Below, one piece after another: positions 3,961 to 18,411 of a stretch of 26,108 nucleotides of DNA. Every line of letters starts with the position of its first letter. Within the stretch, counting starts at the first letter, position 1. Under the pieces are notes generated by a model that was given only the letters and a program-made list of their open reading frames with translations, searched no databases and was not told the DNA's origin. The position numbers were made by a program, and so were the translations under genes. Location of the stretch: positions 1 through 26,108 of the IMG/VR virus record IMGVR_UViG_3300032605_000121. One strand, given 5' to 3'. This stretch comes from a virus.

Positions 3961-4458
3961 GTGGAGGCGCAGGTTGGTGACCTGGTTTTCGCGCACACGG
4001 ACGGAGTAATCGGTAAGGCTATTCGTTTTGGTGAACGACTTCGTTGGAGGAAAGGTTCCTACTGGAACCACGTCGCGATAGTAAGCAGGATAGAAGACGG
4101 AATCGCTTACGTCATACAAGCGGAACCTTCCGGCGTAACTGATGACAAGTCATTAAGTAGCCTCGGAGAATACTTCCTCGTCGAATGTCCGGTCACCAAG
4201 ACCGCTCAAGTAATTGACTTCGCGCGCGCGCAGGTAGGTTCGCATTACGGATTCTGGTCAATCCTTTCCTGCGTCTTCGACATCGTTACATGGGATTGGG
4301 TTCCTTCCATCCGTCGCGACGATACGTGGATATGCAGTGCGCTCGTCGCTGAAGCGTTACGTTACGGAGGCTGGCTCCACGACTGGGGTGACATCTACAC
4401 CGTTACTCCGGCTCAACTCTTCCAAGCATTGGTCATGGACTTCGGCCCGATGTGCTAA
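3961..4458 (+). CDS. YiiX/NlpC-P60-like papain-fold hydrolase, candidate endolysin
   Basis: 165 residues from a GTG start. The order of residues is that of the circularly permuted NlpC/P60 (YiiX/YebB) group: GDLVFAHTDG at the N-terminus, His37 in WNHVAIV, an acidic residue in VIQAEPSG (E55), and the probable nucleophile Cys125 in DTWICSALVAEALRYGG near the C-terminus. Members cleave amide or ester bonds, often in peptidoglycan or lipids. It lies between the holin-like gene and a terminator, so it is the best endolysin candidate here, though it has no wall-binding domain and no signal peptide. Absence of a clear Shine-Dalgarno makes the GTG start less certain. Confidence 0.75.
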   Translation: MEAQVGDLVFAHTDGVIGKAIRFGERLRWRKGSYWNHVAIVSRIEDGIAYVIQAEPSGVTDDKSLSSLGEYFLVECPVTKTAQVIDFARAQVGSHYGFWSILSCVFDIVTWDWVPSIRRDDTWICSALVAEALRYGGWLHDWGDIYTVTPAQLFQALVMDFGPMC

Positions 4459-4497
4459 TCTGTTTTCAGTTGCGACCCCATCTTCGCAACCTCCACG

Positions 4498-4536
4498 GAA
4501 AGCCTCCTTACGTTTGAAACGCGTAGGGAGGCTTTC
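4498..4536 (+). terminator. Strong intrinsic terminator after lysis block
   Basis: A 15-bp stem (4498-4512 with 4522-4536, one T-G wobble) surrounds a 9-nt loop; the outer part is GAAAGCCTCC/GGAGGCTTTC. T-rich DNA (CTGCTTTGTATTTC) follows. It separates the hydrolase gene from the first early promoter at 4600 and so insulates late-type from early transcription. Confidence 0.85.
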
Positions 4537-4599
4537 TGCTTTGTATTTCACCTGATAGAGAACGTTAAAAAAAGTTTCCAAAATATTCGTAAAAATGAC

Positions 4600-4628
4600 T
4601 TGACCGGCGAGCGGTCACGGTGTAGACT
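4600..4628 (+). promoter_or_regulatory. Early promoter P1 with operator-like inverted repeat
   Basis: TTGACC (4600-4605), a 17-bp spacer, then TAGACT (4623-4628). TGACCG (4601-4606) and CGGTCA (4612-4617) form a perfect inverted repeat with a GCGAG centre, overlapping the -35 box. A-rich tracts with AAAATATTCGTAAAAATGA lie directly upstream, like an UP element. The same module occurs at 9361 and 14520. A repressor or activator bound to the repeat would control the promoter. Confidence 0.85.
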
Positions 4629-4633
4629 GTTCT

Positions 4634-4662
4634 TGTTCCGGTGAAGTGCAGTAATCGGTTCA
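4634..4662 (+). ncRNA. 5'-leader stem-loop, copy 1
   Basis: Arms TGTTCCG (4634-4640) and CGGTTCA (4656-4662) pair around the 15-nt loop GTGAAGTGCAGTAAT, with two U-U mismatches inside the stem. It begins 5 bases after the -10 box, so it would form the extreme 5' end of the transcript. The AGGAGG ribosome-binding site starts in the last base of the stem. The loop is conserved at 9403 and 14561. Confidence 0.65.
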
Positions 4663-4675
4663 GGAGGAAGTGAAG

Positions 4676-4834
4676 ATGGCTGATGTGAAGATGACTGAAG
4701 AGCAGTACGAAGAAATGCTCTCAACCCTCGAAGGCAGGGCTGAGTTGGCTGGCCGTACGGTGAAGCAGCAAGCGAAATACGAGTTGGCAATGCTGAAGGC
4801 TCGTCGCACCTTGATGCGTGGAGGTCGCAACTAA
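4676..4834 (+). CDS. Small charged protein, first gene of early unit 1
   Basis: 52 residues. AGGAGG followed by an 8-base spacer precedes the ATG, an optimal site. The sequence is mainly helical and charged (EEQYEEMLSTLEGRAELAGR...ELAMLKARRTLMR), with no membrane segment, Cys pair or known motif. The stop overlaps the next start (TAATG). As the first gene after a strong early promoter it may act soon after infection, for example on a host target, but nothing in the sequence proves this. Confidence 0.75.
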   Translation: MADVKMTEEQYEEMLSTLEGRAELAGRTVKQQAKYELAMLKARRTLMRGGRN

Positions 4835-4971
4835 TGGAGCGCGTAACTATCTCAACGGTTGAACTAACCGCTTTCTATGCGGAACTCGACTCGCTCAACG
4901 GTGCCGAGCGCACCAACCGTTCATTCGAAATTGCCGAGCGTATCGCTCAATTAATCAAGGAGGGGAAGTAA
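4834..4971 (+). CDS. Small hypothetical early protein
   Basis: 45 residues, joined to its neighbours by TAATG overlaps at both ends, so it is translated by coupling within early unit 1. The composition is helical and charged (TVELTAFYAELDSLNGAERTNRSFEIAERIAQLIKEG), consistent with a small helical bundle or adaptor. I recognise no family. GGAG lies about 12 bases before the start, inside the end of the preceding gene. Confidence 0.7.
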   Translation: MERVTISTVELTAFYAELDSLNGAERTNRSFEIAERIAQLIKEGK

Positions 4972-5294
4972 TGACTACCGTAACTATTCGCAAAGAATTC
5001 AAGAAGGACGAATTGTTTGAGTTCTCTTGTGACTCTTACTACGTCAGTATGATTCCGGGAGTTGCGAAAGCGACTTGGAATCGCGCAAAAACCGCTTTGA
5101 AAATTACAGAACACTACACCAACCACACTTACATTGTCACCGAACGTCACCTCGCAGAAGCGTTGAGTCAACTCATTTTAGAGAACGCTTGTCACTGCGG
5201 AGAGCCAATAACGCTTAACACAGACAACTGGGATTCTTGTGTTGCAATCATGTTGCTTGAAACGGTATCCAACTGGACAAGAAAGGGGGAATGA
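4971..5294 (+). CDS. Hypothetical early protein
   Basis: 107 residues. AAGGAGGGG precedes the ATG, which overlaps the preceding stop. The N-terminal half looks beta-rich (TTVTIRKEFKKDELFEFSCDSYYVSMIPG), with TYIVTERHLAEALSQLI in the middle and a CHCGEPITL segment near residue 75. The single CxC pair is not enough for a zinc ribbon. No family recognised. It is part of early unit 1, with a downstream neighbour 2 bases away. Confidence 0.7.
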   Translation: MTTVTIRKEFKKDELFEFSCDSYYVSMIPGVAKATWNRAKTALKITEHYTNHTYIVTERHLAEALSQLILENACHCGEPITLNTDNWDSCVAIMLLETVSNWTRKGE

Positions 5295-5296
5295 GA

Positions 5297-5485
5297 ATGA
5301 CCACCAATAACGGAATCAGAGTCGTTGTATTCAACCCGACTCAGCAGGAGACGTTGGCAACGTGCGGTCACGATGACCTGATGGGTTATTTCGCAGGTCA
5401 GCCCTGCGCGAAGTGTGTACGTGTCAATCACTTGAAGGCAGTACGTGGAGCATCCGCGAGTAGCAAAACAAAAAGGGGGAAGTAA
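5297..5485 (+). CDS. Small protein with possible Cys/His metal site
   Basis: 62 residues from ATG 5297. An in-frame ATG at 5291 also exists, but the AAAGGGGGA site ends at 5290 and gives proper spacing only to 5297. The segment TCGHDDLMGYFAGQPCAKC contains Cys-x-His and Cys-x-x-Cys and may bind zinc, followed by a basic tail (SSKTKRGK) that could touch nucleic acid. The stop overlaps the next start. A small zinc-ribbon-type early protein of unknown role. Confidence 0.65.
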   Translation: MTTNNGIRVVVFNPTQQETLATCGHDDLMGYFAGQPCAKCVRVNHLKAVRGASASSKTKRGK

Positions 5486-5940
5486 TGATGGAAGTAGTAG
5501 AGCCAGAAGTAATGGTAAGTGAACTAGATGGAATGTTTATAGCGTCTTCAGTCGAGTTCATCAACGGAAGAGCAATATGCGCAAACATCTACCCAATGGT
5601 GACTACGCCAGGATACAGATTGACATGTGCGGTGGCCCACAACATGGAGTTGGTTGCCGACTGGAGCCATGAGTACGAAACAATCTGGACAGCAATCTCT
5701 GACTACAAAGAATGGTTCGTTGATTACGTCCGGATGTCAGAACGAGAAGACGAGGAGGTGAACAAACTAGAAGAAAGCATTACGTTGTGGCTTACGAGAG
5801 ATGAAGCGGAAGTGTTGTCAAGCGTTCTTCGCAGCGTACCGTTTTACGATTACGCGCATCACGGTGCAGGAGCGGAAGAAATGATTGACTCCGTACTTCA
5901 ATCACTCAACGCAGAAATATCAAAAGAAGGAGAAAGTTGA
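5485..5940 (+). CDS. Hypothetical acidic early protein
   Basis: 151 residues, rich in Glu and Asp. The start may be ATG 5485 (TAATG overlap) or ATG 5488, which is better spaced from AAGGGGGA. The N-terminal part looks beta-rich, the middle has aromatic residues (DWSHEYETIWTAISDYKEWF), and the C-terminal part contains WLTRDEAEVLSSVLRSVPFYDY, a helical pattern. No family recognised. It overlaps the next TTG start by 4 bases. Confidence 0.7.
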   Translation: MMEVVEPEVMVSELDGMFIASSVEFINGRAICANIYPMVTTPGYRLTCAVAHNMELVADWSHEYETIWTAISDYKEWFVDYVRMSEREDEEVNKLEESITLWLTRDEAEVLSSVLRSVPFYDYAHHGAGAEEMIDSVLQSLNAEISKEGES

Positions 5941-6119
5941 ACAGACATCTATACAAACTGAAGGACTACGAGTTGAAGGGAAGACTCAAGGAGTATCTGA
6001 AGCAAGCGCGGAAAGACGGGATGTCTTACCGGACTATCGCTCAGGAATTATCTGGCTACGGAACGCCCGTCGGCAGAACAGCAGTGGAAAACTGGTGTAA
6101 AGAAATGAAACTTAAGTAA
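5937..6119 (+). CDS. Small HTH DNA-binding protein (TTG start)
   Basis: 60 residues. The start is TTG, overlapping the preceding stop (TTGA), behind AAGGAG with short spacing; no ATG lies near. The C-terminal half (KDGMSYRTIAQELSGYGTPVGRTAVENWCKEMKLK) fits a resolvase/transposase-type helix-turn-helix, with a turn at GYGTPVGRT. A basic N-terminal helix precedes it. It is a candidate regulator of the repeated early operators because it is encoded in the first early unit, but the target is unknown. Confidence 0.75.
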   Translation: MNRHLYKLKDYELKGRLKEYLKQARKDGMSYRTIAQELSGYGTPVGRTAVENWCKEMKLK

Positions 6120-6128
6120 GGAGAAGCA

Positions 6129-6662
6129 ATGGGGTTCAACCTACAAGATTACGAGCCGGTGGAAGACCGACTCCGCAGGTTCTGGAGTGATTATCCGGAA
6201 GGTCGCGTGGAGACACGACTCATCCGCGCTACTGATGACCAGTTCATAGTCAAGTCGTTCATCTACAAAAACTACTCGGACGAGAAGCCTTGGGCAACTG
6301 GTTACGCGGAAGAGCGCGTTGACCCGAACCCGAAGCGCGTGAACTTCGCGAGTGCTTTGGAGAACTGCGAGACGAGTTCGTTGGGTAGGTGCCTTGCGAA
6401 CGCTGGGTACTCAACGAAGGGGAAGCGACCCAGCCGTGAAGAGATGGGAAAAGTTCAGCGAGCAACGGCAGTGACCGCGAAGTTGTCACCACAACAGACC
6501 GTCCTGAAGGCTGCGCTCACCGAGCGATTCCCAGAAGACCCGATGGAACGGAAGGCATACATGGAGTCCGTCCTTGAACGTGAAGTTCGCGGATACGACG
6601 ACGTGCTTCCTGAAGAAGTTGGTGTCCTCATCAACTCCCTCGCCACGGAAGCAGCCAACTAA
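6129..6662 (+). CDS. Putative ssDNA-annealing (Erf/Sak-like) DNA-metabolism protein
   Basis: 177 residues behind AAGGAGAAGCA. The central segment (NFASALENCETSSLGRCLANAGY, then KGKRPSREEMGKV) matches the signature (EN-x-ETS-x-x-GRALA-x-x-G) of a phage family often placed with single-strand annealing or recombination functions. The N-terminal part (IRATDDQFIVKSFIYKN) looks like a beta sheet. A Pro/Glu-rich helical C-terminus follows. The setting, just before an RHH protein and SSB and in the same region as a YqaJ exonuclease, suits a recombination pair. The biochemical role is inferred by pattern; a DNA-binding accessory protein is the alternative. Confidence 0.6.
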   Translation: MGFNLQDYEPVEDRLRRFWSDYPEGRVETRLIRATDDQFIVKSFIYKNYSDEKPWATGYAEERVDPNPKRVNFASALENCETSSLGRCLANAGYSTKGKRPSREEMGKVQRATAVTAKLSPQQTVLKAALTERFPEDPMERKAYMESVLEREVRGYDDVLPEEVGVLINSLATEAAN

Positions 6663-6817
6663 TGCAGATGGTTGAAATGGTAGAAGTGTTCCTGCCTCTT
6701 GAGATTAGCCAGGAACTCAAAGAAGTAGCATTGGAAGTTAATCTCAGCCAGCAACAAGTGATTAGGAAGTCCCTACTTCACTATTTCGGATACATCCGGG
6801 GAGAAGTAAATGAGTAG
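6662..6817 (+). CDS. Ribbon-helix-helix protein
   Basis: 51 residues, starting by TAATG overlap with the preceding stop and overlapping the SSB start by 8 bases. The segment VEVFLPLEISQELKEVALEVNLSQQQVIRKSLLHYFGYI has the RHH layout: a beta strand, helix A, a turn with NLSQQQ, then helix B ending in aromatic residues. RHH dimers bind short repeats in DNA, so it is another candidate for the TGACCG/CGGTCA operators. Confidence 0.7.
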   Translation: MQMVEMVEVFLPLEISQELKEVALEVNLSQQQVIRKSLLHYFGYIRGEVNE

Positions 6818-7238
6818 CAATACAAACCTAGTGGGTAACGTAACGCGTGACCCTGAACTGAAGTTCATGAACAACGGACAGGCGCAGTGTCGCTTGGGCA
6901 TCGCGGTGAACCGACGTTGGCAAAACAAGCAGACGCAGGAGTGGGAGGAGCGCACTTCGTTCTTCACGGTAATCGCGTATGGCAAGTTGGGCGAGAACGT
7001 CGCGAACTGCGTTAACAAGGGAACTCGCGTCAACGTATCCGGTCGCTTGGAGCAGCGAACCTGGGATAAAGAAGACGGAACTAAGGGAGACATCACGGAA
7101 GTAATCGCTGATGACATCGCGGTATCGTTGTCTTTCGCAACGGTTCAGGTATTCCGTGCTGACGCTGGCGTTCGCGTGACAGGTAACGCTTCCGGAACGG
7201 TAGTTCCGCAGTACTCAACAGTAGAGGAGGCCTTCTAA
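6810..7238 (+). CDS. ssb: Single-stranded DNA-binding protein
   Basis: 142 residues with a bacterial-type OB fold: NLVGNVTRDPELKF at the N-terminus, CRLGIAVNRRWQNK, ERTSFFTVIAYGKLGENVANCVNKGTRVNVSGRL in the core. It coats ssDNA during replication and recombination. The tail is short and ends in EEAF, a weak version of the acidic partner-binding tip (DDIPF in bacteria), so contacts with host partners may differ. The start lies inside the RHH gene and its stop overlaps the next ATG (TAATG). Confidence 0.95.
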   Translation: MSSNTNLVGNVTRDPELKFMNNGQAQCRLGIAVNRRWQNKQTQEWEERTSFFTVIAYGKLGENVANCVNKGTRVNVSGRLEQRTWDKEDGTKGDITEVIADDIAVSLSFATVQVFRADAGVRVTGNASGTVVPQYSTVEEAF

Positions 7239-7498
7239 TGGCAGAGAACGTTTACAGCGAGACGGTTCAAACAATCATTGACGGATTAATTCAGCGTCGT
7301 GGCGACTCAGAGATTACGGCCGACGAAGCGAAGACGCTTTACGGTGGAGAAGATTCAACGACCGTGAAAGAACTGGAGAGCAACCAACTGGTTCAGGTCG
7401 CGCTATTGGAAGCGTACGCGCTCATGGAAGAGATGGACGCGTACTTGGACAGTATCCAGCAAGCGAAGCCGAACCGAGAAACACGCCGGAAGAAGTGA
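7238..7498 (+). CDS. Hypothetical acidic helical protein
   Basis: 86 residues, starting by TAATG overlap with ssb and ending by a GTGA overlap with whiB, with GGAGG just upstream. The body is helical and acidic (ETVQTIIDGLIQRR...QVALLEAYALMEEMDAYLDSIQQ), and the tail is basic (NRETRRKK). No family recognised. Strict coupling to SSB suggests a DNA-replication accessory, but this is position only. Confidence 0.75.
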   Translation: MAENVYSETVQTIIDGLIQRRGDSEITADEAKTLYGGEDSTTVKELESNQLVQVALLEAYALMEEMDAYLDSIQQAKPNRETRRKK

Positions 7499-7779
7499 CG
7501 GAAGACTGGCGCAGTAGAGCCTCATGCAGGAAGTCCGACGTTAAAGATTTCTACGCTCACGAGAAGGAAGTAAGGAAACCTGTTCCGGAACACGTGAAGG
7601 CTCTCTGCGGCCAGTGTCCGGTTGGTGACGATTGCTTTGAGTACGCCATCCTCTACGAGGACTACGGATTCTGGGCAGGTACGACTGCGAAGGAGCGTCG
7701 GGAGATGCGCCGACAAGTCGGACTGAAGATTAGGAGAGTTGAGGTAAGGTTGCGACCTCAGCAAAATGATGGGAAGTAA
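7495..7779 (+). CDS. WhiB-family iron-sulfur transcription factor
   Basis: 94 residues from a GTG start that overlaps the preceding stop. Four cysteines in the WhiB order C11-x26-C38-x2-C41-x5-C47 should bind a [4Fe-4S] cluster (ASCRKSD, ALCGQCPVGDDCFEYA). GFWAGTTAKERREMRR is the WhiB turn plus C-terminal basic segment (usually GVWGG...ERR), with Ala in place of one Gly. The family is limited to actinobacteria and their phages. WhiB proteins act with the host primary sigma factor to tune promoters; a phage copy such as mycobacteriophage WhiBTM4 can alter host gene expression. Here it may redirect RNA polymerase to phage promoters. Confidence 0.92.
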   Translation: MTEDWRSRASCRKSDVKDFYAHEKEVRKPVPEHVKALCGQCPVGDDCFEYAILYEDYGFWAGTTAKERREMRRQVGLKIRRVEVRLRPQQNDGK

Positions 7780-8250
7780 ATGAGTATCTTTGTAATGAAC
7801 CACGTATGGTCGCTTGACCTTCCGCCTACTACTAAGTACGTAGCGGTTGCACTCGCTGACCACGCGCACGACGACGGATTGGAAGCGCGTCCTTCGCAGG
7901 ATTACCTGAGCCGTAAGACCGGCATATCAGTTCGTCACGTCCGACGTTGCTTGCACGATTTGGTCGAGCGACGTGTCATCTACGTGGAGCGACCTGCTGC
8001 TCGCGGACGTTGCACCGTGTACGGATTTACACCTCCGGAGGGAGGATTTGGAAGGTCACTGGAGCCGGTCAAGAATACCAATGGGCGGTCATCTGGTTCC
8101 AATGGGCGGTCATCTGGAACCGTTTGGGCGGTCACCCACGACCCTCTAATCATTAATAACCGTAATGATAAAAAAGCGATTTCTTATTCAGACGATGTTC
8201 GTCGGCAAACAATCACGGACATTCGAGCGTTACTCCGTCCTTCCAGTTAG
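7780..8250 (+). CDS. Winged-helix replication initiator-like protein
   Basis: 156 residues, starting 1 base after whiB. Residues about 5-85 (HVWSLDLPPTTKYVAVALADHAHDDG...PSQDYLSRKTGISVRHVRRCLHDLVERRVIYVERP) match the HTH_36-type winged helix at the N-terminus of phage replisome organisers. A repeat-coded linker (NGRSSGSNGRSSG) follows, encoded by the origin-like DNA repeats, then a short C-terminal part. It probably binds these repeats and recruits the host helicase loader, as lambda O does. It could instead be only a regulator. Confidence 0.75.
   Translation: MSIFVMNHVWSLDLPPTTKYVAVALADHAHDDGLEARPSQDYLSRKTGISVRHVRRCLHDLVERRVIYVERPAARGRCTVYGFTPPEGGFGRSLEPVKNTNGRSSGSNGRSSGTVWAVTHDPLIINNRNDKKAISYSDDVRRQTITDIRALLRPSS
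8066..8190. other. Candidate replication origin inside the initiator gene
   Basis: CGGTCA occurs in direct orientation at 8066, 8086, 8107 and 8129, spaced 20, 21 and 22 bp, about two helical turns. Two of the copies lie in an identical 19-mer, CCAATGGGCGGTCATCTGG (8078-8096 and 8099-8117); the third extended copy (8119-8137) is degenerate. An AT-rich stretch at about 8145-8190 follows, suitable as an unwinding element. Iterons plus AT-rich DNA within an initiator gene is the layout of ori-lambda in gene O. Confidence 0.6.
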
Positions 8251-8267
8251 TTCGCTATCGTGGAGGA

Positions 8268-8618
8268 ATGGCCAAAGCAACGATTGACGCGCCGGAACCA
8301 CCACTTCCTCAACTCGTCAACCTTCTTCTTGAACTACAACTCACGCGAAGGTCTATCTACATCAAGCGCGCTCAGAACGAGATACATATCGCTCCGTCTC
8401 CTGACGCTCGGTTACTTGAACGGATTCAAGACTACTTCGACGAACTCAAGTACCTACTCCCTGGGTTCTGCGATTCGTGTCAGGACTGGAGTATCCGAAG
8501 GTGGGAAGCGTTCTGGGGAGCGCATCCGCATTTCTGTGGGAGTTGCCTTCAACAGGCAGTTAGAATATTTGACAGGGAGAACCGATGGCCAGAAACGGAG
8601 ATACCAGACTCATTATGA
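8268..8618 (+). CDS. Small protein with two CxxC pairs (zinc-ribbon-like)
   Basis: 116 residues; TGGAGGA lies just before ATG 8268. A longer overlapping ORF from 8260 in another frame is disfavoured because its start overlaps the ribosome-binding site. The N-terminal helical part (PPLPQLVNLLLELQLTRRSIYIKRAQ) is followed by LPGFCDSCQDW and HPHFCGSCLQQA, two CxxC pairs likely to share one zinc. It may bind nucleic acid or a protein partner. It overlaps the HNH gene by 34 bases. Confidence 0.7.
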   Translation: MAKATIDAPEPPLPQLVNLLLELQLTRRSIYIKRAQNEIHIAPSPDARLLERIQDYFDELKYLLPGFCDSCQDWSIRRWEAFWGAHPHFCGSCLQQAVRIFDRENRWPETEIPDSL

Positions 8619-8995
8619 AGCGTACGAGAATCAACCCGATGTCAAATAAGCGCAGGTCGCAGTTGATGGAGCGTACTGAAACTCGTATGGCTGTGTTCGA
8701 GCGTTCATCACGTTGCGAAGCAAACATTGAACCGCTCTGCTCGTATCACGCTACGGACGTTCACGAAATCAAGACTCGTGCGCGCGGAGGTTCCATCACT
8801 GATGTAAACAACTGTCTTGCTTTGTGTCGTGCTTGCCATCGCTTCATCACGGATAATCCTGCTTGGGCGTTGGAGCATGGATACGTTGTTCACAGTTGGG
8901 CTGGGGAGGCGGAGATGCTGGCAGCGTCTCGCGCGCGTAGAGATTGGCTCTACGGGTATGACACCGTCTTCATTAATGACTCCGAACAACTTTAA
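8585..8995 (+). CDS. HNH endonuclease
   Basis: 136 residues (an internal ATG at 8615 is possible). The core runs from about residue 40 to 90: C44 and C52 (SSRCEANIEPLC), the catalytic His in DVHEIKTRARGG (H60), Asn in DVNN, and CRACH (C81, C84, H85), so the zinc-braced beta-beta-alpha metal fold is complete. The family includes homing endonucleases and phage packaging or replication nucleases. Here it sits among replication and repair genes away from the terminase, so a DNA-processing role is more likely than packaging. It overlaps the next gene by 20 bases. Confidence 0.88.
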   Translation: MARNGDTRLIMKRTRINPMSNKRRSQLMERTETRMAVFERSSRCEANIEPLCSYHATDVHEIKTRARGGSITDVNNCLALCRACHRFITDNPAWALEHGYVVHSWAGEAEMLAASRARRDWLYGYDTVFINDSEQL

Positions 8996-9347
8996 ACTGA
9001 AGCCACCTGAAGAGAAGTTCTACGACGAACTTGAGAAGGACTTCCAGAAGCGAGTAGTTAGGTTCGCTCGCGACAACGGATGGCGTGTCTACTCGGTTCC
9101 TGATTCACGTCGTGCGACGTTGACCGGATACCCCGACTTAACGATGTACCGCGTCGAAGACGACCGTCTCATCTTCGCGGAACTGAAGCGTGAGGATGGC
9201 AAGTTACGCGCTGAACAAATCGCGGTCATTGCAGAACTCAGCAAAATCAGTGAGTCCGGAGCCTTCGAAGTGGTGGTCTGGCGACCCTCAATGTGGGAAG
9301 AAATAGTAAATACCCTGATAAGGACTCACAAAAAAAATCCAAAATAA
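8976..9347 (+). CDS. VRR-NUC domain nuclease
   Basis: 123 residues from ATG 8976; an in-frame ATG at 8958 is an alternative, and neither has a strong ribosome-binding site. The segment GYPDLTMYRVEDDRLIFAELKREDGKLRAEQ carries the VRR-NUC catalytic set: D54 in PDL, E69-x-K71, and Q81, within the PD-(D/E)xK fold. Stand-alone phage VRR-NUC proteins are thought to cut branched DNA such as Holliday junctions. It follows the HNH gene and is the last gene before early promoter P2. Confidence 0.88.
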   Translation: MTPNNFKLKPPEEKFYDELEKDFQKRVVRFARDNGWRVYSVPDSRRATLTGYPDLTMYRVEDDRLIFAELKREDGKLRAEQIAVIAELSKISESGAFEVVVWRPSMWEEIVNTLIRTHKKNPK

Positions 9348-9360
9348 TTCCTAAAATGAC

Positions 9361-9389
9361 TTGACCGGCAAGCGGTCAGGATGTAAGGT
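9361..9389 (+). promoter_or_regulatory. Early promoter P2 with operator-like inverted repeat
   Basis: TTGACC (9361-9366), 17-bp spacer, TAAGGT (9384-9389). TGACCG (9362-9367) and CGGTCA (9373-9378) flank GCAAG. The upstream A-rich tract, AAAATAATTCCTAAAATGA, matches P1 and P3. The centre differs at one base from the other copies while both half-sites are unchanged, as expected if a dimeric protein reads the half-sites. Confidence 0.85.
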
Positions 9390-9395
9390 TGTTCA

Positions 9396-9424
9396 CGTGG
9401 AGGTGAAGCGAAGTAGGCTCCACG
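9396..9424 (+). ncRNA. 5'-leader stem-loop, copy 2 (perfect stem)
   Basis: CGTGGAG (9396-9402) pairs perfectly with CTCCACG (9418-9424) around the 15-nt loop GTGAAGCGAAGTAGG. It starts 6 bases after the -10 box and its last base begins the GAGGAGG ribosome-binding site. The stem sequence differs fully from copy 1 while pairing and loop are kept, which argues for a selected RNA structure. Confidence 0.7.
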
Positions 9425-9437
9425 AGGAGGTTCCGTG

Positions 9438-10184
9438 ATGGGAACGATTACCGCAGTTACAGTCAAGAAGACCGTTAAGAAGTACTACGCCAACGAATCG
9501 TTGCAGATTGTTGACACTCGTTCAATCGGCCACAAGACCGGGGAGAACTGGTTGGTTGAGTGCGTCAACGCCGACCACCAAGAACTCACCGATTACTTCA
9601 TCCTTCTGTCAGAGGCCAGCGAGTTCGCGAACGAAGTTCGTTGCCCTGAGTGCAAGGCTGAGCGCGAACAGTCTGAACGCAATTACGAAATCCAGCGAAT
9701 CGGTTTCTCACTTGCCGAAGCAATGAACTACTCAATGAACGCTGAGTTCGTGTTCACCAACGGAAGCCACTACTCAACCACCGGAGAGTGGGGCGGAGCG
9801 CACGAAATCATCTTGAACTTCGGCGTTGAGACTCACTCAGGATTCGACAAAGTTAACTACTACGGCCCGAAAGTTTCGGGAGAACTCCGTACCTCAGTCA
9901 ACCCTGATGGAACTCCAGTTCTCACGTGGGCGATTAGTAAGTGGGACGAAGGACGGTACGGGGACTTCGAGACTTTCGACAACTTGGAAGATTTCAAGGC
10001 AGCAATGTTTAGCAAGATGGAAATCGTTGAAGCGCAGTTCACCGTTGAAAACACTGAGTTCATTGAGAGCCAAATCGAAAAACTCGGCGAACTTGGTCTG
10101 GGTCTTTCTGAGATTAACGAAGTGGTTAACGACTACATCAAGAAGATTAACGCTTCAGTTCAGGCACGAAAGGAAGGTAAGTAA
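9438..10184 (+). CDS. Hypothetical protein, first gene of early unit 2
   Basis: 248 residues from ATG 9438, 7 bases after GAGGAGG; a GTG at 9435 is too close. The N-terminal third has WLVECVNADHQELTDYF and later a CxxC (RCPECKAEREQSERNYE), the middle is rich in aromatic and Gly residues (NGSHYSTTGEWGGAHEIILNFG), and the C-terminal third is helical (IESQIEKLGELGLGLSEINEVVNDYIKKI). No family recognised. Early position and size suggest a takeover or DNA-metabolism function. Confidence 0.75.
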   Translation: MGTITAVTVKKTVKKYYANESLQIVDTRSIGHKTGENWLVECVNADHQELTDYFILLSEASEFANEVRCPECKAEREQSERNYEIQRIGFSLAEAMNYSMNAEFVFTNGSHYSTTGEWGGAHEIILNFGVETHSGFDKVNYYGPKVSGELRTSVNPDGTPVLTWAISKWDEGRYGDFETFDNLEDFKAAMFSKMEIVEAQFTVENTEFIESQIEKLGELGLGLSEINEVVNDYIKKINASVQARKEGK

Positions 10185-10399
10185 TGTCGTTGCCAACTAT
10201 CGGCGGATTCAGCGTTATTGACAACTACGATTTGTCAGAAGACGGTGAGCAGGTTATCTACTGCGCTCCCTGCTTCATTGACAACTATCACTTCGAGGCC
10301 CAAGAAGTTCTTAACGAGTTGGGAACTGACTTCATCTTCTTGGCCCTTGATGACGAACCGAAACTGTTCTGCTCAAACTGCGGAAGGGGAGTGAACTGA
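10184..10399 (+). CDS. Small protein with two cysteine pairs
   Basis: 71 residues, coupled to both neighbours by TAATG and TGATG overlaps. CAPC (residues about 28-31) and a C-terminal CSNCGRG pair could coordinate one zinc ion; the second resembles a zinc-ribbon knuckle. The rest is acidic and hydrophobic. It may be a small zinc adaptor that binds protein or nucleic acid; no named family. Confidence 0.7.
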   Translation: MSLPTIGGFSVIDNYDLSEDGEQVIYCAPCFIDNYHFEAQEVLNELGTDFIFLALDDEPKLFCSNCGRGVN

Positions 10400-10629
10400 T
10401 GGAACTCGACATCAACAAAGAACAATTCGCTGGCCTCACTTCAGAGCCTCAGAACGGTTGGCTGAAGCGTTCCGCGCACGACGAGTACGACAGGGGAACG
10501 TTCTACGGAACCTTCTACCTGAGCGAAGGAACCGTCATCCAGGTTCGCAAGAACGGAACCGAGCGGAAGTTGTGCCACGTGTTCTGGGTGGACTCTTTCA
10601 AGCCAGCAACAGATGACTGGAGCGAATGA
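10399..10629 (+). CDS. Hypothetical small early protein
   Basis: 76 residues with one-base stop/start overlap upstream (TGATG) and a 4-base overlap downstream. The sequence looks like a small beta barrel or sheet (RGTFYGTFYLSEGTVIQVRKNG, then LCHVFWVDSFKPATDDW). No catalytic motif or membrane segment. No family recognised. GGAAGGGGAGTG supplies the ribosome-binding site. Confidence 0.7.
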   Translation: MELDINKEQFAGLTSEPQNGWLKRSAHDEYDRGTFYGTFYLSEGTVIQVRKNGTERKLCHVFWVDSFKPATDDWSE

Positions 10630-11171
10630 TGAGCGCCTACTTAGTTCACGAAGACACCATTGCGTTGCTCGCTTCAATCGGCGCTTACTGGAGGACCGGC
10701 CCTCACGTTGGAGGCCTCTATGTCTACGCGACGGAATACCCAATCGCGTTGACAGAAGACACGCCAGCGTTCGACATCTTCAATCACGATGACGAAGAGC
10801 AGATGTATCGGTTCCACTATGGCGCGCAATCATTTGAGGATTTGAAGAGAGAACTCTACGCTGGCAATGTTGTCAGTTTGCAGACACGCTATCCTGACGA
10901 TTGGGCCGACTTGGTTCACTATGAGGCAAGGCAATTTAAAGAGGCAAGGCCTGTCTACAAAGATGAAGTTACTTTCGGTGAAGTTCTTGGAGCGTTACGT
11001 TGCTACGAGTACCAGTCATGTGAAACCAATGGTTATGAAACTTCTTTCACTAAATCATTGGTCAACGCGCTAACTAAAAAAGTAATAGACATCTACTCAG
11101 ACGGATGGGAGTTCAAGAGAAATCCAGACGCACCTATCCGAATCTCGTTGTCGGATTTGGCGAAATCATGA
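10626..11171 (+). CDS. Conserved phage protein with YQSCE motif
   Basis: 181 residues (start ATG 10626 or the adjacent ATG 10629). The C-terminal half contains LRCYEYQSCETNGYETSFTKSLVNALTKKVI, where the segment [CY]-x-YQSCE-x-x-x-[WY]-x-x-S recurs in an uncharacterised family common in actinophage early regions. The middle has NVVSLQTRYPDDW. Function is unknown. It ends in an ATGA overlap with the next gene. Confidence 0.75.
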   Translation: MMSAYLVHEDTIALLASIGAYWRTGPHVGGLYVYATEYPIALTEDTPAFDIFNHDDEEQMYRFHYGAQSFEDLKRELYAGNVVSLQTRYPDDWADLVHYEARQFKEARPVYKDEVTFGEVLGALRCYEYQSCETNGYETSFTKSLVNALTKKVIDIYSDGWEFKRNPDAPIRISLSDLAKS

Positions 11172-11488
11172 CGACTCTCTTCGAGATGTATGATGTAGTC
11201 GTAGAGAAGAACGCAACGCTCTACGAGAAGTTCCTTGCATTTCACGAAGCGAACCCGAAGGTGTACCAACGTCTTTACGAGTTGTCTATGCAGATGAAGG
11301 CTCGTGGTCATAAAAAAATTGGCATCGCAATGTTGTTCGAGCGCATGAGATGGGAGTGGTATGAGAAGACCACCGATGTCTCCGGCTACAAACTCAACAA
11401 CAATCACAAAGCGTATTACGCGCGTTTGTTGATGGAGTCACCTGAACTGGTTGGCTTCTTCGATGTCCGGAGCATTGGAGATATGTGA
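11168..11488 (+). CDS. Conserved phage protein (FLAFHEANPKVY family), unknown function
   Basis: 106 residues from ATG 11168, which overlaps the preceding stop (ATGA); the longer frame from 11105 reads into the upstream gene and is unlikely. The sequence YEKFLAFHEANPKVYQRL...GHKKIGIAMLFERMRWEW...GYKLNNNHKAYYARLLMESPELVGFF fits a widespread phage and prophage family with conserved F-x-x-FH-x-x-NP and KLNNN..-x-YAR motifs. It is all-helical in appearance and often lies near replication or nuclease genes. No activity is known to me. Confidence 0.8.
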   Translation: MTTLFEMYDVVVEKNATLYEKFLAFHEANPKVYQRLYELSMQMKARGHKKIGIAMLFERMRWEWYEKTTDVSGYKLNNNHKAYYARLLMESPELVGFFDVRSIGDM

Positions 11489-11829
11489 TACGTCACTTGT
11501 TTGCACTAGGACTTGTCGTTTCACTGCACTCACACGCGGAAATCCATTCGATTGCCAAGCCCATACCGCTAGTAAATCCGGCAGTAATGGCGAAGTGGTT
11601 GAAGGTGAACCTCTGCGAAGAGGGAGGGAAATGGCATGTCAGGGGAGCGGTTTACTCTGGAGGTCTCGGAATCACGGAAACGAACTGGATGAAGTTCGGT
11701 GGGTGGAAGTTCTCTGCGGAGTATGCAGCGACTCCGGAGCAACAAGTGTATATCGCTGAGAAAATTGAGCAGTCGGCAGGATTGGCAGGATACGTTCCTG
11801 ACCAGTACGGATGTGGAAAGGGTTGGTAA
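11485..11829 (+). CDS. Rpf-like secreted muralytic transglycosylase
   Basis: 114 residues from GTG 11485 (GTGA overlap; GGAG a few bases upstream). A short basic start and hydrophobic stretch (MIRHLFALGLVVSLHSHAE) look like a signal peptide. The domain (about 37-110) matches resuscitation-promoting factor: WLKVNLCEEGGKWHVRGAVYSGGLGI, then NWMKFGG, EQQVYIAEKI and a final Cys. E45 corresponds to the catalytic Glu after C44; C44 and C110 probably form the conserved disulphide. Rpf enzymes cleave peptidoglycan glycan strands in actinobacteria. It lies in an early unit, not with the lysis genes. Confidence 0.85.
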   Translation: MIRHLFALGLVVSLHSHAEIHSIAKPIPLVNPAVMAKWLKVNLCEEGGKWHVRGAVYSGGLGITETNWMKFGGWKFSAEYAATPEQQVYIAEKIEQSAGLAGYVPDQYGCGKGW

Positions 11830-11831
11830 AG

Positions 11832-12158
11832 ATGGATGAGTTCGAGAAAGTAATCGAGGAGATGAAGGCACTCCACGATAGGAAGCGTTCCGACTACGGA
11901 AAGAAGGAAGACCCTTTCTCTAACGTTAGAGCCAGCGAAGATTTCGGCGTTGAAGGTTGGGTCGGCGCGTTAATCCGCGCGAACGACAAGATGCGTCGCT
12001 TGCAAGCAGCAGCGAGAGGAAGCACTCTCGTTAACGAAGGAGTTGAAGACTCGCTCATTGATATGGCGGTCTACTCGGCAATCGCACTCGCGCTGTACCG
12101 ACAGGTTACAAAGCGAAACGAAATAGTCAAACAGGCTATGGAATCTGAAGTAAAATAA
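11832..12158 (+). CDS. DUF1599 / nucleotide-modification-associated (Nmad1) protein
   Basis: 108 residues from ATG 11832, with the GAAAGGG of the preceding gene's end as a weak ribosome-binding site. The segment LHDRKRSDYGKKEDPFSNVRASEDFGVEGWVGALIRANDKMRRLQ...NEGVEDSLIDMAVYSAIALALY matches DUF1599, an all-alpha MazG/NTPase-like family also named nucleotide modification associated domain 1. Conserved acidic residues (E, D-x-x-D) suit metal and nucleotide-phosphate binding. A role in handling unusual nucleotides would fit the dioxygenase/glycosyltransferase cassette downstream, but Nmad1 also occurs alone. Confidence 0.78.
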   Translation: MDEFEKVIEEMKALHDRKRSDYGKKEDPFSNVRASEDFGVEGWVGALIRANDKMRRLQAAARGSTLVNEGVEDSLIDMAVYSAIALALYRQVTKRNEIVKQAMESEVK

Positions 12159-12177
12159 ATAACAGGAGGAAATGAAG

Positions 12178-13197
12178 ATGGAAATGGAATACGAAGTAAT
12201 CGCTGACGTGTCAGGCATGTCGCACGAAGAATGGTTGAATTTACGTTCAACAGGTATCGGTGGAAGTGACACCGGAGCAATCTACGGAGAGTCGTACTAC
12301 ACGTCACCGTATTCGTTGTGGGCGCAGAAGTCAGGGCGCGAGCAACGTTCAACCGAAACGAACGAAGCAATGGAGTGGGGAAACATCCTCGAAGACATCG
12401 TTGCTGCGAAGTTCGCGAAGGAGTACGAGTACGCAGTAGTGAAGTGGCCAGTCATGCTACGGAGTAAGAGCAATCCGTTCATGTTGGCGAACCTTGACTT
12501 CTTGATAGTGACTCCGAGTGAACAGTTCCCTGCTGGGAAGGTAACGCTCTGGCCGGAACTAACCGAGCCGGAAGGTGCTAACGCGATTCTTGAAATCAAG
12601 ACAACCGGAATCGTCGGTAAGGGTTCCGCTCAGTTATGGGAAGACGACCACGTTCCGCGCGCGTACGAGTTGCAAGGACTCCACTACGCCACCGTCCTTG
12701 GGTTCGAGCAAGTAGTGTTCGCTGCTCTCGTTGCCGGTCAAGGTCTCGTCGTTCGCGGACGAGTGTATGGAGAGAACGAGATGAAGGACTGCGTTGAGAA
12801 GGAGACGAAGTTCTGGAATCACGTCAAGAGCGGTATCGCGCCAGACCTTGACGGAAGCGACAGCACCGCGACGACGTTGACGAAGATGTACCCAGAGCCG
12901 GTTGAAGGTAAGACGGTGGAAGCCGACGACTTCATCTACGAAACATTCCAGTCGTTCGTGGAAGCCAAGAAGCAAGCGGACGTAGCGGAGAAACGCCTCA
13001 AGGAACTGAAGGCTCACTTGCAGAACGCCATTGGTGAGGCAGAAGCACTTACGCGTGACGGTCAAGTAATCATCACGTACAAGCGCACGAAAGACTCACG
13101 AGTGTTCGACGCTGACGCGCTCAAGGAAGCAGACCCCGAAGTTTACGAACGCTACACAAAAGTTCGCCCAGGATACCGAGTAATGAGGATTAAGTAA
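12178..13197 (+). CDS. YqaJ-type (lambda Exo/RecE-like) recombination exonuclease
   Basis: 339 residues from ATG 12178; AGGAGG with an 8-base spacer to this ATG copies the spacing at the early unit leaders, while ATG 12172 is only 2 bases from it. YqaJ motifs: EEWLNLRSTGIGGSDTGAIYG at the N-terminus, EWGNILEDIV (Glu), NLDFLI (Asp), ILEIKTT (E-x-K) and ELQGLHYATVLG (Gln). The C-terminal third adds a helical segment and YKRTKDSRVF...KVRPGYRVMRI, as in other actinophage exonucleases. It resects dsDNA ends 5'-3' and should pair with the annealing-like protein at 6129. Confidence 0.92.
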   Translation: MEMEYEVIADVSGMSHEEWLNLRSTGIGGSDTGAIYGESYYTSPYSLWAQKSGREQRSTETNEAMEWGNILEDIVAAKFAKEYEYAVVKWPVMLRSKSNPFMLANLDFLIVTPSEQFPAGKVTLWPELTEPEGANAILEIKTTGIVGKGSAQLWEDDHVPRAYELQGLHYATVLGFEQVVFAALVAGQGLVVRGRVYGENEMKDCVEKETKFWNHVKSGIAPDLDGSDSTATTLTKMYPEPVEGKTVEADDFIYETFQSFVEAKKQADVAEKRLKELKAHLQNAIGEAEALTRDGQVIITYKRTKDSRVFDADALKEADPEVYERYTKVRPGYRVMRIK

Positions 13198-13646
13198 TGC
13201 ACTATTCAATCGCTGTAGTAGTACCGTCCGAAACTAACGCGGAACTTTGGGTCGAACAGATTCTTGAGAAGCACAAATATAACAGGTGGGATTGGTACGT
13301 CATTGGTGGACGTTGGAATAACTACTTTCAACTCCATGACGGAACAGAGTGTAACGTCGCGCGAGTAGGAGACATTGACTGGGCAGGAATGTCTGAACGT
13401 AATGCGTTACTCGCTGCGGAACGTTGGGATAACCAAGCATACCGTAGGTGGATAACTGAAACGCGCGAGCAATACATCTGGGAATGTTCACGGCAAGTTC
13501 CGTTCGGGATTGTTGATGCCAAGGGAGTTTGGTTGGACTGGTACGAGTTCGCGGAAGACCTTGACGGGTGGATACCTGCCTTTGAAGATGTGCTTGACGA
13601 GTTCAGTGAAGACGACCTACTCGTCTTAGTGGACGTACACAACTGA
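13197..13646 (+). CDS. Hypothetical protein with WYVIGGRW motif
   Basis: 149 residues, starting by TAATG overlap with the exonuclease. The N-terminal motif KYNRWDWYVIGGRWNNYF is shared by an uncharacterised phage family with a conserved W-x-x-GGRW segment. The middle is rich in Arg and Trp (RWDNQAYRRWITETREQYIWEC) and the C-terminus is acidic (FEDVLDEFSEDDLLVLVDVHN). No catalytic motif I can name. Confidence 0.75.
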   Translation: MHYSIAVVVPSETNAELWVEQILEKHKYNRWDWYVIGGRWNNYFQLHDGTECNVARVGDIDWAGMSERNALLAAERWDNQAYRRWITETREQYIWECSRQVPFGIVDAKGVWLDWYEFAEDLDGWIPAFEDVLDEFSEDDLLVLVDVHN

Positions 13647-13647
13647 C

Positions 13648-13818
13648 ATGACGCCCGACCAAAGCAGAACCAGTATGACCCCCGACTGCACTCATATTTA
13701 TTCGTGGAATGTGTACGTCATCATCCAAAAGGATGATGGGAAAGTTCTTAATTTCAAGATTCCAAACGAGGAACAACACCGTTGCAATTACTGCCCCAAA
13801 TGCGGAGAAGAACTATGA
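13648..13818 (+). CDS. 56-residue zinc-ribbon-like micro-protein (micro-ORF 1 of 6)
   Basis: Starts one base after the preceding gene and ends in an ATGA overlap with the next. The C-terminal CNYCPKCGEEL holds CxxC-x-x-C and the early Cys14/His16 could complete a metal site. An internal ATG at 13675 (MTPDCTHIYSW) is an alternative start; the 33-bp repeat spans it. It is the first of six overlapping micro-genes. Function unknown. Confidence 0.6.
   Translation: MTPDQSRTSMTPDCTHIYSWNVYVIIQKDDGKVLNFKIPNEEQHRCNYCPKCGEEL
13654..13686 (+). repeat. 33-bp start-associated repeat, copy A
   Basis: This stretch (CCCGACCAAAGCAGAACC...) matches 14264-14296 at 28 of 33 positions with no gap. In both copies an ATG lies at the same place, followed by codons for M-[TN]-P-[DE]. 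The two copies are read in different frames upstream of that ATG, so similarity is kept at DNA level rather than protein level. Confidence 0.65.
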
Positions 13819-13955
13819 CGCCCGAAGAACCCTTTGACGACTTTGATGAGTTTGTGAAGCATCACCAAATCAAGGATGAAGAGATGGGTGCAGCCTTCGC
13901 AGCATGGCTATCTCAGTTAGGGTGGGACGGAGACTTTGAAAAGGTGGAAGAATGA
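13815..13955 (+). CDS. 46-residue acidic micro-protein (micro-ORF 2 of 6)
   Basis: ATGA overlaps join it to both neighbours. Acidic and helical (EEPFDDFDEFVKHHQIKDEE, then AFAAWLSQLGWDGDFEKVEE). No Cys, no membrane span and no known family. Coding status rests on the unbroken overlap chain and sensible composition. Confidence 0.55.
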   Translation: MTPEEPFDDFDEFVKHHQIKDEEMGAAFAAWLSQLGWDGDFEKVEE

Positions 13956-14101
13956 ACGCTGATGAACGCCAAGCCCTACAAGAAAAGCACCAGCCTCAAC
14001 CGCACACGGAATGGTTTCCGGTGTGCGCCACCTGCATCACCCAATCACCCTGCGACGTAATCAAGGTACTGGACGAACTAGAGAGAGTGCTAGCCATATG
14101 A
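13952..14101 (+). CDS. 49-residue micro-protein with three cysteines (micro-ORF 3 of 6)
   Basis: Starts and ends in ATGA overlaps. The segment WFPVCATCITQSPCDVIK carries CxxC and a third Cys, with upstream His residues, so a small zinc site is plausible. The end is helical and acidic (VLDELERVLAI). Function unknown. Confidence 0.55.
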   Translation: MNADERQALQEKHQPQPHTEWFPVCATCITQSPCDVIKVLDELERVLAI

Positions 14102-14169
14102 GCGTACTTTTCGCAGTAGCAATGACGTTGGTGGCAGTAACTGCCCTAAATAATATGAGGAAACGATGA
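14098..14169 (+). CDS. 23-residue membrane micro-protein (micro-ORF 4 of 6)
   Basis: A very short frame between two ATGA overlaps. It is almost entirely one hydrophobic span (LFAVAMTLVAVTAL) with a basic tail (NNMRKR), an inside-facing anchor arrangement. It may be a real membrane peptide or a translational bridge. Confidence 0.45.
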   Translation: MSVLFAVAMTLVAVTALNNMRKR

Positions 14170-14288
14170 GAGCACGTTGCCAACACTGCGGTAAGAAAAT
14201 CCGACTGACCCCATCAGGGCGCATTTGGTATCACAAACGAAGCAAGGCCATATTCTGCAAGGTCCCGACCAAGGCAGAGCCAGAATGA
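14166..14288 (+). CDS. 40-residue basic zinc-knuckle-like micro-protein (micro-ORF 5 of 6)
   Basis: ATGA overlaps at both ends. RCQHCGKKIRLTPSG followed by IWYHKRSKAIFCK gives CxxC...H...C, a possible zinc site in a strongly basic protein that might bind nucleic acid. AGGAAACG precedes the ATG. Function unknown. Confidence 0.55.
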   Translation: MRARCQHCGKKIRLTPSGRIWYHKRSKAIFCKVPTKAEPE

Positions 14289-14296
14289 ACCCCGAA
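14264..14296 (+). repeat. 33-bp start-associated repeat, copy B
   Basis: Partner of 13654-13686, with five substitutions. Here the internal ATG (14285) is the start of micro-ORF 6. It could be a relic of micro-gene duplication or a shared translation or RNA signal. Confidence 0.65.
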
Positions 14297-14467
14297 GCAA
14301 TCCAAAAGTTGATTGACTTGCACTACTACGTTGAGTGCGAGTGCGGTAAGGACTGTTACCCTCAATCGTGCGAAGAGTGCGGAGAGGAATGGCCCTGCAC
14401 AGAGTTGGGTCGGCTACAACTGTTGAAGGCCATTGAATACCCGAAGATAAAGGGAGTGTATAAATAA
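14285..14467 (+). CDS. 60-residue cysteine-rich micro-protein (micro-ORF 6 of 6)
   Basis: ATG 14285 overlaps the preceding stop; the longer frame from 14225 reads into micro-ORF 5 and lacks support. CECGKDCYPQSCEECGEEWPC holds six cysteines within about 20 residues, enough for one or two metal sites. It closes the micro-gene chain just before early promoter P3. Confidence 0.65.
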   Translation: MNPEAIQKLIDLHYYVECECGKDCYPQSCEECGEEWPCTELGRLQLLKAIEYPKIKGVYK

Positions 14468-14519
14468 AGTCCTTATATTGCTCGGTTTGTAGGAACTAAA
14501 AATAATTCCAGAAAATGAC

Positions 14520-14548
14520 TTGACCGGCGAGCGGTCACGGTGTAAAGT
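14520..14548 (+). promoter_or_regulatory. Early promoter P3 with operator-like inverted repeat
   Basis: TTGACC (14520-14525), 17-bp spacer, TAAAGT (14543-14548). TGACCG (14521-14526) and CGGTCA (14532-14537) flank GCGAG exactly as at P1. The upstream AAAAATAATTCCAGAAAATGA tract again matches. It drives the unit beginning at 14596 and perhaps the modification cassette beyond. Confidence 0.85.
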
Positions 14549-14552
14549 AGTT

Positions 14553-14583
14553 CTGTTGGGGTGAAGTGAAGTAACTCTGGCAG
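14553..14583 (+). ncRNA. 5'-leader stem-loop, copy 3
   Basis: CTGTTGGG (14553-14560) pairs with TCTGGCAG (14576-14583) using G-U wobbles, leaving the 15-nt loop GTGAAGTGAAGTAAC. It starts 4 bases after the -10 box. The 3' arm overlaps the AGGAGG ribosome-binding site by two bases, so stem stability could affect translation. Confidence 0.6.
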
Positions 14584-14595
14584 GAGGAATTAAAG

Positions 14596-14907
14596 ATGGA
14601 AGCAGTCAAGAATTGTGAAGAAGTCATCAAGGAATCAATGAAGTTGGAGTGGTCATTTACAAGCGACAACAAAGTTGCTCTCGGTCACGACGAGCAGGGT
14701 CTCGCTGTTTCAATCCACAAGATGTACGACCTTGACTCATTCACGTTCAAGTTTCACGCTTGGACTTATGGTCCTTACCAGACCGCAGGACTCTTTGACT
14801 CAATGGTTGAAGGCATGAAGTCATTCGGATTCTCAACGGAACCAACTCCAGAATACTTCGAAGCGGTTGCTGCCGAGCGTAAGAACTTGGGACTGGAGGT
14901 GAACTAA
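14596..14907 (+). CDS. Hypothetical protein, first gene of early unit 3
   Basis: 103 residues with AGGAGG and an 8-base spacer, the same arrangement as in unit 1. The centre is beta-rich (LAVSIHKMYDLDSFTFKFHAWTYGPYQTAGLF) and the C-terminal part helical (EYFEAVAAERKNLGLEVN). No known motif. Its promoter and leader suggest early, strong expression. The stop overlaps the next ATG. Confidence 0.75.
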   Translation: MEAVKNCEEVIKESMKLEWSFTSDNKVALGHDEQGLAVSIHKMYDLDSFTFKFHAWTYGPYQTAGLFDSMVEGMKSFGFSTEPTPEYFEAVAAERKNLGLEVN

Positions 14908-15166: not shown

Positions 15167-15175
15167 CCTCGTTGC

Positions 15176-15658: not shown

Positions 15659-15664
15659 GAACGA

Positions 15665-15678: not shown

Positions 15679-15691
15679 AAGGAAGAAGGGG

Positions 15692-17100: not shown

Positions 17101-17102
17101 TC

Positions 17103-18391: not shown

Positions 18392-18411
18392 GGATTGTGG
18401 ATTCGCTATTA

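Follow-up and report, generated by a model that had tools for sequence, protein, structure and literature searches.

A promoter-linked hairpin with an exchangeable loop at the predicted 5' end of phage leaders

Hairpins in early phage leaders are familiar from lambda, where boxB hairpins for the N proteins have differing loop types. In Escherichia coli, mRNA is stabilised by stem-loops of the ompA/papA type at the extreme 5' end, upstream of the Shine-Dalgarno (SD) sequence, as stated in the titles of Emory 1992, Bouvet and Belasco 1992 and Bricker and Belasco 1999, cited in PMC3997798. Promoter early stem-loop (PeSL) cassettes of T4-type phages are repeated units of an early promoter and a stem-loop, and are called promoter-terminator motifs in a title cited by PMC4503421, which refers to Arbiol 2010 and Comeau 2014. 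Cluster K mycobacteriophages carry a conserved start-associated sequence (SAS) just before start codons, to which the ESAS adds an inverted repeat (outlined in PMC3203893 and PMC12699233). The manA and wcaG phage leader RNAs, as summarised from Weinberg 2010 (PMC2864571), are of another kind. Here we describe a recurrent hairpin between promoter and SD in the IMG/VR virus record IMGVR_UViG_3300032605_000121, of which the whole stretch of 26,108 bases is called the window.

Like the ompA/papA stem-loops, this hairpin is predicted to lie at the extreme 5' end, upstream of the SD. Unlike them, it recurs across phages as a family whose loop is either conserved or exchanged and whose distance from the promoter is nearly constant; a record holds up to three copies, and stabilisation is only proposed here. 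With PeSL cassettes it shares the repeated unit of a sigma-70-type promoter and a stem-loop, found in three window copies of presumably early timing, but the hairpins have no T tract and are followed by an SD. A terminator was rejected on the missing T tract and on the lack of a + strand terminator-like site at the three hairpins. The resemblance to cluster K elements drawn in the original prediction holds for position and fails for sequence, the 13-mer SAS GGGATAGGAGCCC having 0 matches in the window at up to 2 mismatches. SAS also stands at many gene starts, and ESAS repeats have a consensus in each subcluster, whereas the stems of the window and its nearer relatives (group 1) have none. In contrast to boxB, the hairpin abuts the SD and no boxA-like match lies near the three hairpins, the window total of such matches being below chance. 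In the open-access literature searched, we found no such conserved leader structure described for phages of this kind. To our knowledge, conserved RNA structures in phage leaders have seldom been demonstrated by covariation.

Pairing of the stem in the window and its relatives

The window holds three units made of TTGACC, a 17-nucleotide (nt) spacer, a -10 element, the hairpin and AGGAGG, at positions 4600-4667, 9361-9430 and 14520-14587 (Table 1). Model R1 scores the three hairpins at 32.8 to 38.1 bits and the next place in the window at 9.1 bits. This scoring favours the three, as the model was built from them or their duplicates; no extra copy was found. The hairpin predicted after each of three promoters and before AGGAGG is confirmed. 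The loop cores fit GAAGYGMAGTA in the window and GAAGYVMAGUA across the family. The conserved loop, given as 15 nt in the original prediction, is thus a core of 11 nt, flanked by Y and a base whose pairing with Y is optional.

Relatives were obtained by a YqaJ search and by pattern scans of IMG/VR. The founding set comprises 12 distinct hairpins (3 from the window, 9 from relatives) in a gapless alignment. Their arms have no common sequence, and 71 of 84 stem positions pair, compared with a maximum of 69 in 100,000 whole-arm exchanges. Double changes are seen at 8 of 8 stem pairs. The fraction of paired cells is 81.3%, against 55.9% in shuffled and 30 to 50% in slid registers. The covariation score reaches 0.782; shuffling gives a mean of 0.262, and slid registers no more than 0.197. 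All of the founding 12 carry GAAG and AGUA; the invariance of these eight letters is imposed, because the search patterns fixed them.

G-U wobbles outnumber A-C mismatches by 12 to 1 in the unfiltered founding set, by 16 to 0, after filtering, in 15 copies that do not belong to group 2 (the small-phage clade described below) and by 55 to 6 in 41 group-2 hairpins. This asymmetry points to pairing in the sense RNA. The filter behind the 15 copies dropped matches with fewer than 5 of 7 pairs and scored G-U as a pair but not A-C, which favours G-U; the cut at 5 or more pairs removed no GGGAGC-type (group-2) match. Three chance matches (L011, L050 and L196 in our numbering of loci, with 5, 5 and 6 pairs) were removed from the strand count by hand. 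The edge filter lost a true copy, L018 (at 13145; 4 of 7 pairs in register, 8 pairs with a bulge), which was restored for the folding, SD and spacing counts. The set outside group 2 includes contig L232 in the strand, folding, SD and spacing counts.

These sequence comparisons support a stem that is selected to pair, in the sense RNA. Selection on pairing had been proposed from three stems of one genome that differ yet pair. It is borne out by the covariation in relatives (weaker in the second clade) and by the asymmetry of G-U over A-C. The premise is imperfect in copy 1, where 5 of 7 positions pair.

Table 1. Positions of the three promoter-hairpin units of the window and of two further genes
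Feature	Position	Strand	Details
Copy 1 promoter	4600-4628	+	-35 TTGACC 4600-4605, 17-nt spacer, -10 TAGACT 4623-4628
Copy 1 palindrome TGACCG-N5-CGGTCA	4601-4617		overlaps -35
Copy 1 hairpin	4635-4661	+	loop core GAAGTGCAGTA 4643-4653; two U.U stem mismatches; 32.8 bits
Copy 1 SD AGGAGG	4662-4667	+	adjoins stem directly
Copy 1 first gene	4676-4834	+	52 amino acids; sole Pfam match below curated cut-off
Copy 2 promoter	9361-9389	+	-35 TTGACC 9361-9366, 17-nt spacer, -10 TAAGGT 9384-9389
Copy 2 palindrome TGACCG-N5-CGGTCA	9362-9378		overlaps -35
Copy 2 hairpin	9397-9423	+	loop core GAAGCGAAGTA 9405-9415; 36.6 bits
Copy 2 SD AGGAGG	9425-9430	+	1 nt beyond stem
Copy 2 first gene	9435-10184	+	249 amino acids; no PHROGs or Pfam match at E 0.01
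Copy 3 promoter	14520-14548	+	-35 TTGACC 14520-14525, 17-nt spacer, -10 TAAAGT 14543-14548; -10 spacing via duplicate L004
Copy 3 palindrome TGACCG-N5-CGGTCA	14521-14537		overlaps -35
Copy 3 hairpin	14555-14581	+	loop core GAAGTGAAGTA 14563-14573; 38.1 bits
Copy 3 SD AGGAGG	14582-14587	+	adjoins stem directly
Copy 3 first gene	14596-14907	+	103 amino acids; no PHROGs or Pfam match at E 0.01
Sak-like protein gene	6129-6659		PHROGs: unknown function
WhiB transcription factor gene	7495-7779		actinophage mark

Second clade, loop exchange and distribution

A pattern without a stem requirement recovered the second clade, group 2. It is a large set of small-phage contigs, none much longer than 16 kb (GC content 0.48-0.49 in the four examined), with the same loop, stems of the GGGAGC/GYTCYC type and the SD CGGGAG. 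We count at least 41 distinct hairpins. In 41 sequences, 89.6% of the cells are paired (83.4% when shuffled) and the covariation score is 0.344, compared with 0.240 for shuffled arms (0 of 500 as high) and at most 0.170 in slid registers. The loop is closed by C-G in 39 of 41. Terminase relatives of these contigs are mostly phages of Mycobacterium, Gordonia and Arthrobacter, all below 60% identity, and blastn of one leader returned four 19-nt matches. ORF clustering at a blastp E of 1e-4 on partly incomplete contigs, aimed at a phage-encoded RNA binder common to both groups, gave two clusters that join group 2 to any group-1 record, one of Sak-like proteins and one of short membrane-like proteins with a single group-1 member. 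One phage protein family alone connects group 2 with two or more group-1 records. The Sak-like protein is also present in L232, which we regard, weakly, as a further contig with the same loop and layout. It carries GGTGTTGGC-GAAGCACAGTA-GTCAACA followed by AAGGAGG, and scores only 20.3 bits.

We fetched 80 loci through the Sak-like protein, regardless of any hairpin (the best 80 of 403 relatives). The model gives 11 matches at E up to 1 in these loci, ten of them real by context. The layout TT-17-CANNNT-(6 to 8)-hairpin-GGGAG-start is kept in 45 of the 80, of which 43 fall within L248-L293, the 46 nearest relatives. Both the starts of the arms and the CANNNT form of the -10 element were picked after the leaders had been viewed. 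Among the misses in the nearest 46, L254 has the leader by eye with another 5' arm, and L273 and L283 have 288 and 56 nt of upstream sequence. Classed by eye, the loops of the 45 leaders are GAAGYVMAGUA and near variants (10), CGAACG types (11), a long structured loop (8), CGACAAG (5), CAACAAA types (5), GUNGU (3), GUCC (2) and AGACA (1). The variant GAAACACAGUA in L271 and L291 breaks otherwise invariant letters. No such leader was found within 700 nt in the other 32 loci (L294-L327 minus L299 and L302), some of which have almost no upstream sequence. A miss there is weak evidence, because the group-1 leader stands 1.4 to 2.2 kb upstream of the Sak-like gene.

A quick tree of the protein, with 46 rows, requires 12 changes for the nine loop types (minimum 8, shuffled mean 30), so most of the pattern is due to inheritance. 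For the GAAG-AGUA type it requires 6 changes, and starred branches force at least 3 of these; the tree cannot separate gain from loss, and leader and protein may have recombined. As far as these sequences tell, the loop is less conserved than the pairing and the placement of the hairpin. This is the reverse of relatives that would keep the linear sequence but not the pairing, which had been named as the outcome that would speak against the structure. The relatives lose the loop sequence and keep the hairpin in place.

Run over the full length of eight related records, the covariance model built from the founding 12 gave 14 copies with scores of 31.8 bits or higher, and the next best place scored 14.1. 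These 14 are the founding copies and their duplicates; the search therefore shows only that those eight records hold no further strong copy. A scan blind to promoter and stem, for the loop and AGGAGG at a fixed distance, returned 28 places in 26 stretches. A promoter was present at 12 of the 12 places with 6 or 7 of 7 pairs and at 0 of the 16 with 5 pairs or fewer (Fisher p 3.3e-8, repeated copies counted). Sequences are repeated across contigs on both sides, and the 12 places are eight distinct hairpins by eye, most of them already known.

A known RNA family was rejected, as Rfam 15 gave no window match at the gathering score; at E up to 2, six loci yielded two microRNA matches alone, far below gathering. 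We also rejected a host element or prophage remnant. A pattern scan of genome contigs gave 9 matches, each with at most 4 of 7 pairs. A model search of 396 actinobacterial genomes with stricter filters produced 12 matches at E up to 0.05, none convincing. By eye, 11 of these do not combine promoter, loop and SD, and L239 has no loop match within one mismatch. In two named phages, Pontimonas phage phiPsal1 (whole) and Actinomycetia phage DSL-LC01 (first 50 kb), the best place scores 16.8 bits and is antisense within a gene.

Geometry, folding and proposed function of the leader

All 45 small-phage leaders have a spacer of 17 nt (16-18 allowed), and the distance from the -10 element to the 5' arm is 7 nt in 39, 6 in 5 and 8 in 1. 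In the 16 copies outside group 2 the -10 element lies 12 to 17 nt from the loop core, with a mode of 14-15 (the promoters of L153 and L232 are doubtful in this count), and 13 of them carry G or A at stem position 8. Given these spacings and initiation 7 to 8 nt beyond the -10 element, the first mRNA nucleotide is predicted to fall on the stem base or beside it. A hairpin at the very 5' end and next to the SD, as first suggested, is supported by this phasing, with the 5' end itself being predicted. The loop core is 7 to 9 nt from the start of the SD outside group 2 and 10 to 12 nt in group 2.

In short fragments the hairpin is the best fold, with z values of -2.9 for copy 1 and -3.5 for copy 3. 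In a 64-nt leader its probability is 0.98 for copy 3 (as L004) and 0.77 for copy 2, and averages 0.54 over the 16 leaders outside group 2, under an energy model that ignores non-canonical loop pairs. Removal of the 5' arm lowers the mean predicted SD access from 0.66 to 0.50 in these 16 leaders and from 0.35 to 0.03 in the 41 of group 2. Shuffling the 3' arm weakens its closure of the SD in 40 of 41 group-2 leaders and 13 of 16 others. The group-2 5' arm GGGAG is usually a copy of the SD GGGAG, and a two-state leader is plausible in this clade from the modelled folds. In L254, L275, L280 and L287 the 5' arm is no copy of the SD and the hairpin is kept, which argues that the hairpin, and not an alternative fold, is the constant feature.

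The G-bulged (loop E or sarcin-ricin) consensus has GAA opposite AGUA between paired ends. The loop letters agree with it in 57 distinct copies, in letters that the search patterns fixed. The closing pairs of the 16 copies outside group 2 are C-G, U-A or U-G in 11, C.A in 3 and C.C in 2. The GAAGYVMAGUA loop is probably a compact cap; we propose this because its letters GAA...AGUA equal the G-bulged consensus, which is a lead and not a test.

We propose that the promoter-linked 5'-terminal hairpin shields the 5' end of early mRNA from decay while the SD is kept free, an explanation that we hold to be evenly poised between right and wrong. The paired 5' end would shield the triphosphate from pyrophosphohydrolase and from 5'-end-dependent nucleases. 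The 3' arm, locked in the hairpin, would be kept away from the SD, and messages with such leaders would be long-lived and well translated. The conserved loop would be one of several caps, a compact one, and may also bind a host factor, since the two clades have hardly any phage protein in common at the blastp level. According to PMC3997798 and titles that it cites, paired 5' ends hinder pyrophosphohydrolase and 5'-end-dependent decay in E. coli and B. subtilis, which are not the host here, and B. subtilis RppH requires at least 2 unpaired 5' nucleotides. Among the three functions first suggested, the best fit is protection of the RNA with the SD left free. The loop may serve for binding, and gating of translation is suggested strongly in the small-phage clade alone, on modelled folds.

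Some results weigh against the window copies themselves. Taken by itself, the loop lacks significance in the window (19 matches with up to 3 mismatches, 12.6 expected; 7 of 100 shuffles as high), and a consensus promoter scan is at chance overall (9 found, 9.8 expected), listing copies 1 and 3 but not 2. The short fragment of copy 2 folds no better than its shuffles (z -0.7; 50 of 200 as good). The 64-nt leader gives the hairpin a probability of 0.15 in copy 1. Other results weigh against the proposed protection. A purely physical hairpin has no need of an 11-nt loop that is conserved between clades. Of the 16 leaders outside group 2, 7 have a hairpin probability under 0.5, and the average in the 41 of group 2 is 0.44. 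In group 2 two pairs show double changes (in 14 and 8 cells), as many as 429 of 500 shuffles reach, and further pair types are no better than shuffles; the double changes are few because the 5' arm hardly varies. The host whose decay enzymes matter here is a predicted one, from WhiB (group 1) and distant terminase relatives (group 2).

The 11-nt loop might instead be a specificity tag for a trans-acting factor, a host protein or a small RNA, with the stem merely presenting it. The loop types would then be distinct specificities, comparable with the boxB loops for lambda N proteins. GAAG and AGUA do not vary in the founding 12, the same loop recurs in the second clade and in one further contig, and the loop types are discrete, with repeated changes of the GAAG-AGUA type on the tree, some of them forced. 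Yet the loop types otherwise cluster strongly on the tree, and a single phage protein family joins group 2 with two or more records of group 1. Position 7 of the loop varies between A and C, and position 6 among A, C and G, with T in two variants; no single antisense partner pairs with all of these, and the actinobacterial genomes offered no convincing copy. On balance we find a tag possible but doubtful. A wider version, in which 5'-end loops are exchangeable identity tags, each type read by its own factor that selects, protects or activates phage messages, strikes us as rather unlikely, and so does its companion idea that phages diversify the loops while the hairpin stays.

The SD copy in the group-2 5' arm and the near-complete loss of predicted SD access without that arm, together with the SD closing by the 3' arms, would also suit a two-state translational switch. 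In it the 3' arm pairs either with the 5' arm, leaving the SD free, or with the SD, closing it. The four leaders that lack the SD copy and keep the hairpin speak against a switch, the signal is weak outside group 2 apart from window copies 2 and 3, and no ligand is known; we think it improbable. An element that alters RNA polymerase soon after it initiates, in the manner of HK022 put or lambda nut, would explain a position at the predicted transcript start and the promoter beside every well-paired copy of the blind scan. It is very improbable, however, as the hairpin keeps a close link with the SD, which begins 7 to 12 nt after the loop core, boxA-like matches in the window are below chance (17 found, 20.3 expected) and 12 terminator-like sites stand in 4300-20000 where 15.4 are expected. 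DNA palindromes just upstream in the promoters could point to a DNA-level motif, a downstream promoter element or operator whose inverted repeat only resembles a hairpin. This is hardly tenable with a group-1 stem that covaries without a common arm sequence and admits G-U wobbles while A-C mismatches are rare.

Should the hairpin protect or select early phage mRNA, it could serve as a portable part for gene expression in hosts where genetic tools are few, and as bait for the host factor that reads 5' ends. With different loops on one scaffold, loop specificity is directly testable.

Phage, host and neighbouring features

The record belongs to a tailed phage, with genes for SSB, the YqaJ recombinase, Tet_JBP, terminase, portal and protease, as well as WhiB. 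WhiB is regarded as an actinophage mark in the relevant passage of PMC10202952. The hosts of these phages are probably Actinobacteria, a call made for group 1 from WhiB and for group 2 from the distant terminase relatives. Megablast of window bases 1-25000 against phages gave no match, and protein searches against phages found relatives that are all below 60% identity. The product of 6129-6659 is presumably Sak-like. We infer that the three window promoters are early, because recombination- and replication-like genes stand behind them. A terminator-like site at 4496-4538 lies upstream of the first of these promoters.

The layout of the promoter palindrome is kept in some relatives with other half-sites, TGTCCG-N5-CGGACA in L153 and TGGCTG-N5-CAGCCA in L006; none was found in L232 and L233. 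Such changing half-sites are as expected for a phage repressor with shifting specificity. Many of the small-phage promoters (L248-L293) have TGTCRG right after the -35 element and the unusual -10 form CANNNT, possibly a further operator or the mark of a special sigma factor. In many of the same loci, by eye, a gene for a short membrane-like protein lies between the leader and the Sak-like gene. The first genes after the hairpins of L026, L038, L046, L233 and window copy 3 start with M-D/N/E-A-V, hinting that the cassette recombines together with the gene start. At 15692-17100 of the window, a ParB_N-like protein adjoins a protein with a Tet_JBP oxygenase domain, a pair that may be a sign of modified phage DNA.

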